A DNA stretch of 64,000 nt from Geoalkalibacter sp. (GTDB taxonomy: Bacteria; Desulfobacterota; Desulfuromonadia; Desulfuromonadales; Geoalkalibacteraceae). The notes beneath the pieces were generated by a model. The model had not been told where the DNA came from. It was given only the letters and a program-made list of their open reading frames with translations, and did no database searches. This document shows, piece by piece, positions 21,872 to 27,345 of this stretch (its first letter is position 1; every line of letters starts with the position of its first letter). The translations under genes and the position numbers were made by a program. The stretch lies in contig NZ_JAUWAV010000016.1 of the NCBI RefSeq assembly GCF_030605225.1, forward strand, positions 1-64,000. Direction: 5' to 3'.

Positions 21872-23311
21872 ATGAAGCGAGAGGTTGTGGCGGCGCTGGC
21901 CGCCGCGCAGTTGTTTCTCGTGCCCGCGGCGCTGTCCGCGGCGGAGATCGTCACCACGCTGGAGGATCAGACGGAGATCGCCCTGACCATTTACAACGAC
22001 GATCTGGCTCTGGTCAAGGATCGTCGCCAGGTGCGCCTGCCCGGCGGCGAAAGCCGGCTCGCGGTGCGCGAGGTCAGCGCCCGCATGCGTCCTGAAACGG
22101 CGCTGCTGCGCCATCTCGATACAGGCGGCGCGCCGCGCGTCCTGGAGCAGAATTTTGATTTCGACCTGCTCAGTCCGCACAGTCTGCTGCAAAAATACGT
22201 GGGACGCACGGTCGAGTTAGTGCGTACCCATCCGCAGTCGGGCGAGGAAAGCCGCGAAGAAGCCCTTCTGCTTGCCTACAACGACGGGGTGCCGGTCTTG
22301 CGCCTCGGCGAGCGTATCGAAACCGGGGTCCCGGGGCGCCTGGTGTTTCCCGAGGTGCCCGCCGATCTGCGCGAGCGGCCGACCCTGGTCATTTCCCTGG
22401 GCAATCCCACGGCGGGCGGCCGCGATCTGGAACTCAGCTACCTGACCGGCGGCCTGTCCTGGCGCGCCGATTACGTGGCCGAGCTCAGCGCCAAGGACGA
22501 CCGGTTGGATCTTTCGGGATGGGTGACCCTGATCAACGAAAGCGGCACCTCCTATCGCGACGCCCGCCTGCAACTGGTGGCCGGTGATGTGCACCGGGTG
22601 CGGGATGAACCCCGTTTCACCCCGGAGCTCATGGCGCGCGCGGCCCTGGCGGCCCCGGTCGCGGATATGGCCGCGGAGAGCCTTTTCGACTACCATCTCT
22701 ACAGCCTCGCGCGGCCCACCACCCTCGCCGATCGCCAGACCAAGCAGGTGGCCCTGCTTGGGGCCGCCGGGGTGAAGGTGCGCAAGGAGTATCGGCTGCG
22801 CGGCGCCGATTACTACTATGCCGGGCGCCATGGCGAGATCGGCGCGCGCCTGCCCGTGGGGGTGTTCCTCGAATTCGACAACCGCGAACAGGACGGCCTG
22901 GGCTTGCCTTTGCCCAAGGGGATTTTGCGCGTCTACAAGAAGGACAGCGGCGGCAATGCCCAGTTCATCGGCGAGGACCGCATCGAGCACACCCCGAAAA
23001 ACGAGCGGGTGGCTCTCAGGCTGGGCCAGGCCTTTGATGTCACGGCGTCTCGGACACAGACGGATTTTCGCCGTATCGCCGGCGGCGAGGGCGAGCCGGC
23101 GGTGATCGAGACGGCCTATGCCGTGCGCTTGAAAAACGGGGGACGAGAGGCCGTGCGGGTGCGGGTCGAGGAGCCCGTGCCGGGGGACTGGCGGATTCTT
23201 CAGGAAAGCCTGCCCCATCGCAAGGAGGCGGCCAATCTGGCGGTGTGGGAAGTCGAGGTGCCGGCGCAGGGCGAGACCCTGCTCGAATATCGGGCGCTGG
23301 TGCGTTTCTGA
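21872..23311 (+). CDS. Exported DUF4139-domain protein
   Basis: The product has 479 residues with a signal peptide ending ALSAAE. The body contains the DUF4139 region (YLTGGLSWRADYVAELS, then the long beta-rich stretch to EVPAQGETLLEYRALVRF). The family has no established biochemical function. GGGAGG lies 8 nt before the ATG. It is the last gene of the unit with the PhnD-like protein and the hybrid kinase and ends in a strong hairpin. It may act in the cell envelope, possibly in the same response, but nothing in the sequence proves this. Confidence 0.82.
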   Translation: MKREVVAALAAAQLFLVPAALSAAEIVTTLEDQTEIALTIYNDDLALVKDRRQVRLPGGESRLAVREVSARMRPETALLRHLDTGGAPRVLEQNFDFDLLSPHSLLQKYVGRTVELVRTHPQSGEESREEALLLAYNDGVPVLRLGERIETGVPGRLVFPEVPADLRERPTLVISLGNPTAGGRDLELSYLTGGLSWRADYVAELSAKDDRLDLSGWVTLINESGTSYRDARLQLVAGDVHRVRDEPRFTPELMARAALAAPVADMAAESLFDYHLYSLARPTTLADRQTKQVALLGAAGVKVRKEYRLRGADYYYAGRHGEIGARLPVGVFLEFDNREQDGLGLPLPKGILRVYKKDSGGNAQFIGEDRIEHTPKNERVALRLGQAFDVTASRTQTDFRRIAGGEGEPAVIETAYAVRLKNGGREAVRVRVEEPVPGDWRILQESLPHRKEAANLAVWEVEVPAQGETLLEYRALVRF

Positions 23312-23314
23312 GGC

Positions 23315-23360
23315 AAGCAAAAAACCCCGTCGCCTTGTTGGGCCGACGGGGTTTTTGCTT
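23315..23360. terminator. Bidirectional terminator, now the insertion site of the group II intron
   Basis: AAAACCCCGTCG and CGACGGGGTTTT arms flank an 11-nt loop, with an A-run on the left and a TTTTT run on the right, so it can end transcription from either side. It follows the DUF4139 stop directly and ends 2 bp before the intron. Confidence 0.88.
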
Positions 23361-23362
23361 AT

Positions 23363-25203
23363 GTGCGCCCAGCATGGGCGCACTCTTGTGGGTGCAAGTC
23401 CCATCGTAAGCTGATCACGGCGAACGAAGTGAAGCGCAACTGCACGAGGGCGACCGAGTGTGGGGAGGAAGCGTGGAGCGAAGCTGCGAGCCGATGGACA
23501 AGAACCGGATAGAAGGCGCTGCCGAGCAGGGCGAGCGGGCATAAAACCGCGAAGCTCTCGTGATCAAGGCGAAGCGGCGTAAATTCGGCGGTTGTGCAGC
23601 GAAGGAGTGCGTTCTTACCTGGGGAGATCTCGCCTTGTGCCTGAAAGGGCGACGGAATGGGTCCGGAGCGAGAAGTCAGCAGAGGTCGTAGTAGTCGCCG
23701 GGACGGGGCGAAGGACCGAACGAGAAGGAGAGCCGACGGCCATGTCGCTCGCACGCGTCAGGCACCAGATGCCCGGTATAACGGGGCGGACCGAGGGAAG
23801 GGCAGGTGAAGCCGCGCCCGAACCGGTTCGTGGTGAAACGCGGTCGGCGCGACATGGAGACGGGAGCTCGGGGCGCGAGGATCTGTTGCGGCAGGTTCTG
23901 GCGCGAGAGAACATGGCTCGGGCGTGGAAGCGCGTCAAAGCCAACGGCGGCAGTGCCGGGGTGGACGGATTATCGGTCGCCGCAACGGCGGAGCACCTCA
24001 AGACTCAATGGCCAACGATTCGGGAAGCGATTCTGAACGGGCAATACCGGCCGAAGCCGGTCAGGCGCGTGCGGATTCCCAAGCCCGGTGGCGGCGAGCG
24101 GGAATTGGGGATACCGACGGTGACGGATCGACTGATCCAGCAAGCCCTACTGCAAATTCTGCAAGAGAAGATCGACCCGACGTTCTCCGATCACAGCTAC
24201 GGGTTTCGCCCCGGACGCCGGGCGCACGATGCGGTGCGCATGGCGCGGCGCCACGTGCAGGACGGGTATCGCGTGGTGGTGGATGTGGATTTGGAGAAAT
24301 TCTTCGACCGGGTCCATCACGACATCCTGATGGAACGGCTGTCAAGGCGGATCGAGGACAAAGCCGTGCTACGGCTGATCCGAGGTTACCTTGCGGCCGG
24401 GGTGATGGATGGTGGTGTGGTCATGGAACGGCACGAGGGGACGCCGCAAGGCGGCCCGTTGTCGCCGCTCTTGGCCAATGTACTGCTCGACGAGGTGGAT
24501 CGGGAGTTGGAACGGCGCGGCCATCGCTTTGTTCGCTACGCCGATGACTGCAACGTGTATGTGCGCAGCCGTCGTGCGGGCGAACGGGTGCTGGCCGGTC
24601 TGCGCCGACTCTACACCCGGCTCCATCTGAAGGTCAACGAAGCCAAGAGCGCGGTGGCGCCGGCGTCCGGCCGCAAATTTCTGGGATACAGCTTCTGGTA
24701 TGGTCCCGGCGGTCAGGTCCGGTACCGCGTTGCAAAGAAGGCACTGGAGACCTTCAAACAGCGCATCCGGCAAATCACGCGCCGCTCCTGCGGACGGAGT
24801 CTGGCGGAAGTGGCGGAACGCTTGCGGAGCTACCTGCCCGGCTGGAAGCGCTACTTCCAACTGGCGCAGACGCCAAAGGTGTTCCGGGAACTCGACGAGT
24901 GGATACGGCACCGGTTGCGGGCATTGCAGCTCAAGCACTGGCGGCGGGGAAAGACGATGTACCGGGAGCTGTTGGCATTGGGGGCGTCAGAGATGGACGC
25001 CCTAAGGGTTGCGAGGAACAGTCGCCGATGGTGGCATAATAGCCGTCTGGCACTGAACCGCGCCATGCCGATTGCCCACTTCGACCGGATCGGCGTTCCC
25101 CGGCTCTCATAACCTCAACTTCTCGAACCGCCCGGTGCGGACCCGCATGCCGGGTGGTGTGGGAGGGGAGCGGTCAGAGAACCTGACCGCCCCCTATCCC
25201 GAT
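23363..25203 (+). mobile_element. Group II intron with intron-encoded protein
   Basis: The 5' end is GTGCGCC, matching the GTGYG consensus. A structured stretch of about 380 nt precedes the reverse transcriptase. A domain V-like hairpin lies at 25127-25158 (stem ACCGCCCGG/CCGGGTGGT, inner GCG/CGC). A domain VI-like stem follows (GCGGTCA at 25170-25176 with TGACCGC at 25184-25190), and the 3' end is about CCCGAT at 25203. Joining the exons at 23362/25204 restores a TAA stop for the convergent response regulator, which supports the boundaries. Insertion just after a terminator hairpin and the lack of an endonuclease domain both fit group IIC targeting. The boundaries are by inspection and could shift by a few bases. 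Confidence 0.85.
23742..25112 (+). CDS. ltrA: Group II intron reverse transcriptase/maturase
   Basis: The product has 456 residues. Reverse transcriptase blocks include GGSAGVDG, RPKPVRRVRIPKPGGGERELGIP, DPTFSDHSYGFRPGR, VDVDLEKFFDRVHHD, GTPQGGPLSPLLANV and the catalytic YADD. The maturase (GIIM, domain X) region follows (SLAEVAERLRSYLPGWKRYF). There is no HNH endonuclease domain, so it probably depends on nicks at replication forks or on structured targets. The ATG at 23742 is preceded by GAAGGAGAG; the frame is open from 23592 but the earlier part overlaps structured intron RNA. All visible catalytic residues are intact, so the element may be active. Confidence 0.92.
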   Translation: MSLARVRHQMPGITGRTEGRAGEAAPEPVRGETRSARHGDGSSGREDLLRQVLARENMARAWKRVKANGGSAGVDGLSVAATAEHLKTQWPTIREAILNGQYRPKPVRRVRIPKPGGGERELGIPTVTDRLIQQALLQILQEKIDPTFSDHSYGFRPGRRAHDAVRMARRHVQDGYRVVVDVDLEKFFDRVHHDILMERLSRRIEDKAVLRLIRGYLAAGVMDGGVVMERHEGTPQGGPLSPLLANVLLDEVDRELERRGHRFVRYADDCNVYVRSRRAGERVLAGLRRLYTRLHLKVNEAKSAVAPASGRKFLGYSFWYGPGGQVRYRVAKKALETFKQRIRQITRRSCGRSLAEVAERLRSYLPGWKRYFQLAQTPKVFRELDEWIRHRLRALQLKHWRRGKTMYRELLALGASEMDALRVARNSRRWWHNSRLALNRAMPIAHFDRIGVPRLS

Positions 25204-25946
25204 CTTTGGCTGGATTTGAACCGTTTGAGCCAGGCCTGGAATTCCTGCTCCTCGTTTTCCAGCTCGAAGGCGTTGATCAGCCCGCGGCGCAGGCCGCTGG
25301 CCACGGCGCGGTTGCGCAGGTTGAAGGCGTCGCCGAATTTTTCACTGTGAAACTGTTCCTGGTCGATGCCCAGTTTGGTGTAGAGGGAATTGAGGCGGCT
25401 CTGCACGCCGCGCCGCGACAGGTAGCGGCGCTGGGCGATGAGATTGTCGGTGAGACCCAGGGAGATGTCGAGGAGCGCCTCGTACTCGATGTCCGACAAC
25501 GAGGTCTGGCTGTGGCCGGTGCGCCCCTGGACCTTGCGCACCTCGGGGTCGATCCAGCACTGTTCGTCGATAAGCACCGTGCGGATGGCCGCCGCGATGC
25601 GGTCGCGGGGATTGGACTTGAGCACGTAGCCGTACACCGTCTCCGGCGGCACGATGCGCAGCAGCGCGCGCACGTACATCTCGTCCTTGTACTGACTCCA
25701 GAACACGATGCGCGCCAGGGGACGCTTGTCCCACAGGGCGCGGGCGAAGTCGATGCCGTTCATCTCGGGCATCTGAATGTCGCTGATGACCAGCGGGCGC
25801 TCCACCTGGGCGGCCATTTTCAGGGCGGCCAGGCCGTTGTCGGCGCGCTCGATCTCGCCGGTGAAGTCTTCCTCGCGCAGCAGGCGCTCGAGAAATTCAA
25901 AATCCTTGGGGTTGTCCTCGGCGATGAGAAACTTATAGGTCTCCAT
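25194..25946 (-). CDS. Response regulator with LuxR/NarL-like helix-turn-helix
   Basis: The product has 250 residues. The receiver domain has Glu10-Asp11, phospho-acceptor Asp56 in VISDIQMPEMNG, and a conserved Lys in VYGYVLKSN. The C-terminal part (LSDIEYEALLDISLGLTDNLIAQRRYLSRRGVQSRLNSLYTKLG) resembles a divergent GerE-type HTH. The gene overlaps the upstream kinase by 14 nt. Its last two codons and TAG stop lie inside the 3' end of the group II intron; before insertion it would have ended ...SSQR followed by TAA. Its terminator is now 1.8 kb away, beyond the intron. The start at 25946 is the METYKF methionine, which begins the receiver fold. Confidence 0.85.
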   Translation of the reverse strand: METYKFLIAEDNPKDFEFLERLLREEDFTGEIERADNGLAALKMAAQVERPLVISDIQMPEMNGIDFARALWDKRPLARIVFWSQYKDEMYVRALLRIVPPETVYGYVLKSNPRDRIAAAIRTVLIDEQCWIDPEVRKVQGRTGHSQTSLSDIEYEALLDISLGLTDNLIAQRRYLSRRGVQSRLNSLYTKLGIDQEQFHSEKFGDAFNLRNRAVASGLRRGLINAFELENEEQEFQAWLKRFKSSQRSG

Positions 25947-27345
25947 GGCTTGCCTTGTCTGTGTCGCGCTCCGGGCGCAGGTTGCCGTTGAGGGGGAGGT
26001 TGAGTTCAAAACGGGTGCCGCTGGTGAAGCGCGACGGCCCCCACTGCACGCGGGCACCGATCGCCCGGGCGCGCTCGCGAATGTTGTTGAGGCCTCGCCC
26101 GCCGCCCTGCACGCCAGGCTGGGGTCTGAACCCGTTGCCGTTGTCCTCGACGACCAGCACCAGCGCCTCGTCGCGCCGGTCGAGGGTCACTTCGTAGCGG
26201 CTGGCCTGGGCGTGCTTGATGACGTTGTGCACCGCTTCCAGGGTGATGCGGTAGAGCGAAAGCAGGCACAGGCGTGAGAGGCCCAGACCTTCCACCTGCG
26301 GCGATACATACAGATGGTACTCGGGAAGCTGCTCTTTGTCGAGGTGGCGCTCGAAGTGCGATTGCAGGGCGGCGCCGAAGCCGAGGATCTCCAGGGTCTG
26401 GGGATGGAGATTTTCCATGACGTCGCGCAGATTGGCGATGGCGCGCCGCAGGTCCTCCTCGACCTTTCCGATGTCCGCGGCGCAATTCTGCTCATGAGGC
26501 AGGCTCTGGAGGGCGCGCAGGATGTTGGAGAGATCGGAGAGAGACTGATCATGCAGGTCCATGGCGATGCGGCGGCGTTCCTCCTCGGCGCCCTCGAGCA
26601 GTTTCTCGGTGCTGACCACGCGGATCAGCCGCTCGGTCATCTGATTGATGGAGACCGCCAACTCGTCGAGTTCGTCCTGCACCTCCTTGGGCGCGGGCGG
26701 CGCGGTGAGGTCGCCGCGGGCGATGCGCCCGGCGCTGTCGGAGAGGGTCTTGATGCGGCGCAGCAGGCGGCGGGCGAAGAACAGGGAGAGCAGGGTGCCC
26801 AGGGGAATGGCGGTGCCCATGCCGATGATGGTGACCAGGGCGGTGCGCGCCACCAGCTCATCGATGTTCTGCAGGTTGACGTCGCGCAGCTGCTCGCGGC
26901 GCTGCTGGGAGGTTTCGGCCAGCGACACCAGCTGCGGGCGCAGCAGCCCCAGGGCGCTGAGAAAGCGCGCGCCGTCGTAGCCGCGCTTGGAATCAAGATC
27001 CTCGACGGTCTGCTTGAGCAGGGCGCGGGTGCTGTCCGGCAGGATCATGAGTTCGAGAATCCGCGCCACCGCGCCGGAGAGATGATCGTGGAGCTCGGCG
27101 AGGGTTTCCAACTCGACGATATCGATCTGGCCGCGCCGGTTGATATGCAGGATCATGCCCTGCAGGCGCTGGGCGGCGAGATCGGCTTCCGCCAGGGCGA
27201 CGAAGGTCAGGGTCACCTTGCGCGCCTCTTGACGCTTGACCGAGAGATCCCAATAGGTGTACTGCAGGAAGATCACCAGAAGGATCGTCAGGGTCAGAAC
27301 CGTGGCGGGGGCAAGAATGATCTGTTGTTTGAGGGTGAGACGCAT
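25933..27345 (-). CDS. NarL-type (HisKA_3) membrane sensor histidine kinase
   Basis: The product has 470 residues. A helix at about 9-29 and another at about 168-190 bracket a helical periplasmic domain of about 135 residues. HAMP follows (about 190-245), then HisKA_3 with His265 in RRRIAMDLHDQSLSDL, and an HATPase domain with NVIKHAQA and GGGRGLNNIRERA. This is the architecture of kinases that pair with NarL/FixJ regulators, and it overlaps exactly such a regulator downstream. The signal is unknown. Upstream lies a 346-bp non-coding stretch with a candidate small RNA on the opposite strand. Confidence 0.88.
   Translation of the reverse strand: MRLTLKQQIILAPATVLTLTILLVIFLQYTYWDLSVKRQEARKVTLTFVALAEADLAAQRLQGMILHINRRGQIDIVELETLAELHDHLSGAVARILELMILPDSTRALLKQTVEDLDSKRGYDGARFLSALGLLRPQLVSLAETSQQRREQLRDVNLQNIDELVARTALVTIIGMGTAIPLGTLLSLFFARRLLRRIKTLSDSAGRIARGDLTAPPAPKEVQDELDELAVSINQMTERLIRVVSTEKLLEGAEEERRRIAMDLHDQSLSDLSNILRALQSLPHEQNCAADIGKVEEDLRRAIANLRDVMENLHPQTLEILGFGAALQSHFERHLDKEQLPEYHLYVSPQVEGLGLSRLCLLSLYRITLEAVHNVIKHAQASRYEVTLDRRDEALVLVVEDNGNGFRPQPGVQGGGRGLNNIRERARAIGARVQWGPSRFTSGTRFELNLPLNGNLRPERDTDKASHGDL

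Follow-up and report, generated by a model that had tools for sequence, protein, structure and literature searches.

A group IIC intron inserted behind a shared terminator exchanges the stop codon of a convergent response regulator gene

The window, a stretch of 64,000 nucleotides from a Geoalkalibacter sp. (contig NZ_JAUWAV010000016.1), holds two convergent genes, a DUF4139/MuiA-like gene on the forward strand and a response regulator gene on the reverse strand, with a bidirectional intrinsic terminator and a complete group IIC intron between them, the intron lying on the regulator's side (Table 1). The perfect palindrome of the terminator, AAGCAAAAA...TTTTTGCTT, stops at 23360 and the intron starts 2 bp later, just past a terminator common to both genes, as had been proposed from the letters of the window.

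Table 1. Features of the locus (coordinates are those of the window; G003 is a genome of the same genus).
Feature	Position	Strand	Evidence
DUF4139/MuiA-like gene; its terminator is the insertion target	21872–23311	+	Pfam PF13598, E 3e-11
Bidirectional intrinsic terminator; palindrome of A-tract, hairpin and T-tract	23315–23360	.	fold z −5.64 (DNA fold); intact in G003
IBS1, GCTTAT	23357–23362	+	4/6 pairs with EBS1, positions −1 to −4; empty site in G003
Complete group IIC intron, 1841 nt	23363–25203	+	Rfam RF02001 and RF01998; boundaries via relatives and empty site
EBS1, ATAAAA, in D1 loop GGGCATAAAACC	23541–23546	+	pairing over 29 sites
Intron-encoded reverse transcriptase/maturase (IEP), 456 aa	23742–25112	+	RVT_1, GIIM, TIGR04416 (E 9e-126)
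Domain V, CGC triad 25129–25131	25126–25160	+	RF00029 alignment; fold z −4.1
Domain VI and 3′ end	25161–25203	+	RF00029 alignment; end CCCCTATCCCGAT in 126/129 junctions
Response regulator gene with intron-given end TCG GGA TAG (Ser-Gly-stop)	25194–25946	−	PF00072, E 1e-15
Partner histidine kinase gene (HAMP, HisKA_3, HATPase), overlapping the regulator start	25936–27345	−	Pfam

The intron opens with GTGCGCC at 23363 (start sequence GTGCGCCCAGCATGGGCGCAC), directly after the 5′ exon ...GCTTAT (23362), and closes with ...CTATCCCGAT (25203), after which the 3′ exon CTTTGG follows from 25204. To place these boundaries in the intron family, 129 distinct 3′ junctions were gathered from genome contigs and whole-genome searches, 126 of which have them in common. 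Rfam models for D1–D4 match inside the intron above their gathering scores (RF02001, the D1 model, 110 bits; RF01998, 43 bits), and RF00029, covering domains V and VI, is slightly short of its own (38.2 bits vs 40). The common boundaries, the fold of the terminator hairpin and the D1 score take the locus beyond chance. The RF00029 alignment sets the CGC triad of domain V, a mark of group IIC, against AGC of the consensus, and points to A 25196 as the likely branch point; the CTA ending in this adenosine (25194–25196) is, in antisense, the TAG given to the regulator. The IEP has an intact YADD motif, gave no HNH match in Pfam, so that an endonuclease domain is absent, and finds its best PDB match in the GsI-IIC reverse transcriptase (6ar1, E 5e-134). 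Conserved ribozyme domains and a reverse transcriptase/maturase are thus both present, and the element is a group II intron, as originally predicted.

The window's own genome (89 contigs) has a single copy of the intron, and a search of 277 genomes of the class found it in full only here and in G002. As the closest IEPs among the matches listed are Betaproteobacterial, with up to 80% identity, this distribution hints at arrival by horizontal transfer. G002 has seven 5′ and seven 3′ intron fragments of about 100–120 bp beside transposase-like sequence. We considered chimeric, template-switched introns for these fragments and rejected them as an assembly artefact, since repeat ends of other elements, of the same length, occur at the same junctions; k-mer assembly with chained contigs is expected to leave repeat ends of equal length at junctions. 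The single contig of this genome (C1, L043–L054) shows many abutting intron and IS-like repeat ends of about 110 bp and has the look of a draft whose contigs were joined end to end. G002 probably holds seven to eight collapsed intron copies, and we used only the exon flanks of its fragments, with no result depending on G002 being one replicon.

Targeting of terminators by IIC introns is established (PMC4424553, PMC3898094, PMC8919778), and the prediction that it operates here agrees with the hairpin before the window intron and with the terminator-type hairpins with T-tract that precede almost every 5′ end recovered from relatives, including all seven in G002 (judged by eye). EBS1 lies in a D1 loop of the form GGGC-NNNNNN-CC, and over 29 sites 157 of 174 EBS1–IBS1 positions pair, compared with 125 after shuffling (p < 5e-5), where shuffling means swapping sites among introns and, with many sites coming from the same genomes, is not fully independent. 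Taken together, the CGC triad, the endonuclease-free IEP nearest to the GsI-IIC enzyme, the terminators at almost every 5′ junction and the pairing above shuffles uphold the assignment to class IIC. The window itself is a weak target site, because EBS1 pairs with only four of the six IBS1 bases and the +1 exon base (25204) is C, not T, the commonest base at this position (78 of 129 junctions). Over their first 290 bases the window and G002 introns differ by four substitutions only, one of them in EBS1 (AUAAAA in the window, AUGAAA in G002), by which one G-U pair at the window's site becomes A-U.

Six genomes of the family, counting the window's, have the regulator or a relative of it. The check proposed beforehand was a comparison with an intron-free allele, and G003 supplies one: the same two convergent genes surround the same hairpin, here unbroken, and the regulator ends in CCAGAGATAA, that is ...CAG AGA TAA, running directly into the terminator TAAAAACCCCGTCGGCCCAACAAGGCGACGGGGTTTTTT. 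This real empty site has exactly the junction originally predicted. The coordinates 23362 and 25204 are the flanking exon bases of the window; rejoined, the window exons read in antisense C CAA AGA TAA, as against the present CAA AGA TCG GGA TAG. The regulator is unbroken in G001, G002, G004 and a partial contig of G005 as well, and ends in (Q/H)R in four uninterrupted relatives and the fragment of a fifth, compared with ...QR-Ser-Gly-stop in the window. The predicted gain of two residues is therefore borne out, the Ser-Gly codons being the complement of the intron 3′ end, and so is the claim that the regulator has been cut off from its terminator, which it adjoins in G003 and from which the intron now parts it. 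On the conserved ...KRFKSSQR tail the two extra residues are probably neutral. In G001 (L023) the same intergenic gap, past the regulator's terminator, carries a different repeated insertion, CGGCGGCATCGCGTGCGGC..., present twice with N between; the gap seems to have been hit by insertions more than once.

Filled and empty sites amount to presence/absence variation of the intron, and the filled allele is carried by one genome only, so that polarity depends on the comparison. One might accordingly argue that the longer C-terminus is native, that relatives lost two codons and that the intron left the gene unchanged. Yet the Ser-Gly-stop codons lie wholly within sequence that 126 of 129 junctions share as the intron 3′ end, and every relative ends in (Q/H)R; we consider this reading, refuted by the empty site, extremely improbable. 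With the intron, its boundaries, the empty allele and the protein change at hand, we conclude with high confidence that a mobile group IIC intron inserted after the shared terminator, replacing the regulator's stop and adding two residues.

The exchange would have run as follows. A group IIC intron would have entered the DNA by retrotransposition, immediately 3′ of the terminator hairpin, with the hairpin itself and a short EBS1–IBS1 pairing as its guides. The T-tract end ..TTAT of the shared terminator contained, on the other strand, the regulator stop A|TAA, the complement of IBS1, ATAAGC, having once included the original TAA; insertion parted this stop from the gene, and the conserved intron 3′ end CTATCCCGAT (antisense ATCGGGATAG) took its place. 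In antisense, the ..TTAT of IBS1 reads A|TAA and the intron 3′ end A|TCGGGATAG, a phase-locked swap: as the first A is common to both, TCG GGA TAG replaces TAA with no change to the last sense codon. Since the intron is antisense to the regulator mRNA, splicing is unable to restore the gene. The swap is a by-product of IIC site choice, and at six of eight sites in this genus IBS1 holds an antisense stop at +1, in the same frame as the intron's TAG at +7. That EBS1 targeting of ..TTAT or ..TCAT forms a built-in, phase-locked stop exchange, in which the antisense IBS1 stop is replaced in-frame by the CTATCCCGAT end, rendering insertion at tight convergent pairs nearly harmless and possibly helping introns to settle there, is a more far-reaching and rather doubtful proposal.

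The radical-SAM gene (PF04055) of G002 ends in ...LLPPAESG* (CCGCGGAATCGGGATAG), and its counterparts in G000 and G003 end in ...LLPPEA* (GAGGCATAA), with a TAA that opens the terminator A-tract; those of G001 and G004 also end in TAA. By these gene ends, the G002 gene is a second swap of the same kind in the genus. We then assigned the orientation of neighbouring genes at the 126 junctions with enough flank, using codon-position GC content and open frame, and found 79 convergent, 39 codirectional and 8 ambiguous. The stop of the convergent neighbours lies at a median of 33 nt from the junction, within 60 nt in 52 cases and within 100 nt in 59, and falls inside the intron in five: the window regulator, the G002 radical-SAM gene, L158 (Peptidase_S41), L103 (aminotransferase) and L171 (CysG). 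Pfam was run on these five donated-stop genes, and the empty-site comparison covers the first two; the stop swap probably occurs at a few sites outside the genus too. Several long open frames entering the intron, whose GC content by codon position was not that of coding sequence, were left out of the count. The 3′ flank of L227 (G291, contig 50) starts with GTGCGCCCAGCA, the intron's own 5′ end, which suggests either a tandem pair of introns or a join made in assembly. For introns of this family it is commonplace to uncouple a convergent gene from the terminator it shares, and uncommon, though recurrent, to supply its stop; with 59 of 79 convergent stops within 100 nt of an intron 3′ end, the consequence for the regulator is less special than the original prediction implied.

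Selection could instead act on the intron end as a cassette that serves convergent genes as a stop or for regulation, the donated stops then being adaptations. In favour, the in-phase TAG at +7 accounts for four of the five donated stops, and the likely branch-point CTA overlaps the TAG read in antisense; against this, the cassette is used at five of 79 convergent sites only, IBS1 phase locking accounts for both cases in the genus without selection for function, and the 3′ end is just as conserved where a convergent gene is not nearby. Such selection is in our view most unlikely. An enrichment of donated stops in one frame (four of five in phase +7 vs one third expected) was set aside as nominal only (~0.05), the sites being too few.

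The nearest intrinsic terminator of the regulator is now 1.84 kb downstream of its stop, past the antisense intron. Within 23363–25203 a simple scan, which does not cover Rho and likewise failed to detect the shared terminator, with its bulged stem, from the minus-strand side, found no minus-strand terminator-like site. From this and the gene geometry, the regulator transcript would now extend antisense into the intron, as proposed, and Rho-dependent termination or processing could end it. Both the displaced terminator and the lack of a detected site in the intron fit a real regulatory effect, in which loss of the terminator, together with antisense transcription, would reduce the output of the regulator or silence the intron, but antisense transcripts in bacteria are often shortened by Rho, and we regard such an effect as conceivable though unlikely. 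We infer that insertion was near-neutral.

For a group IIC intron, the window and G003 make up a clean filled/empty pair of natural origin, and the locus carries a warning for annotation, in that Ser-Gly C-termini of genes facing such introns are intron-derived. Robart and co-workers are said, in reviews, to have described in 2007 group IIC (bacterial class C) introns of the B.h.I1 type after intrinsic terminators. The window intron resembles these in ribozyme type, in its endonuclease-free IEP, in targeting by hairpin and short IBS1 and in its site right after a terminator, and differs in that its terminator is shared and its 3′ junction falls in the stop codon of the convergent gene, so that a coding sequence is altered. 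Terminator-type IIC insertions are said not to break coding sequences (PMC8919778). The window sets a limit to this idea of coding-sparing introns: tight convergent pairs lose the stop and terminator of the neighbour, on the strand beyond the help of splicing. The closest solved relative of the window IEP belongs to the thermostable GsI-IIC intron (reverse transcriptase structures 6ar1 and 7k9y), which differs in host and site. The groEL intron of Azotobacter lies in sense within groEL, in another lineage. In the window, by contrast, the split stop is that of an opposite-strand gene and is not restorable by splicing; the likeness is that of a group II intron at a stop codon, in Azotobacter the termination codon of groEL (PMC4465626). 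Group IIC-attC introns of integrons share with the window intron an IIC ribozyme recognising a DNA stem-loop, but the stem-loop targeted here is a terminator and not an attC site. The window intron is a further case of a known type, with a neat consequence, and not a new system.
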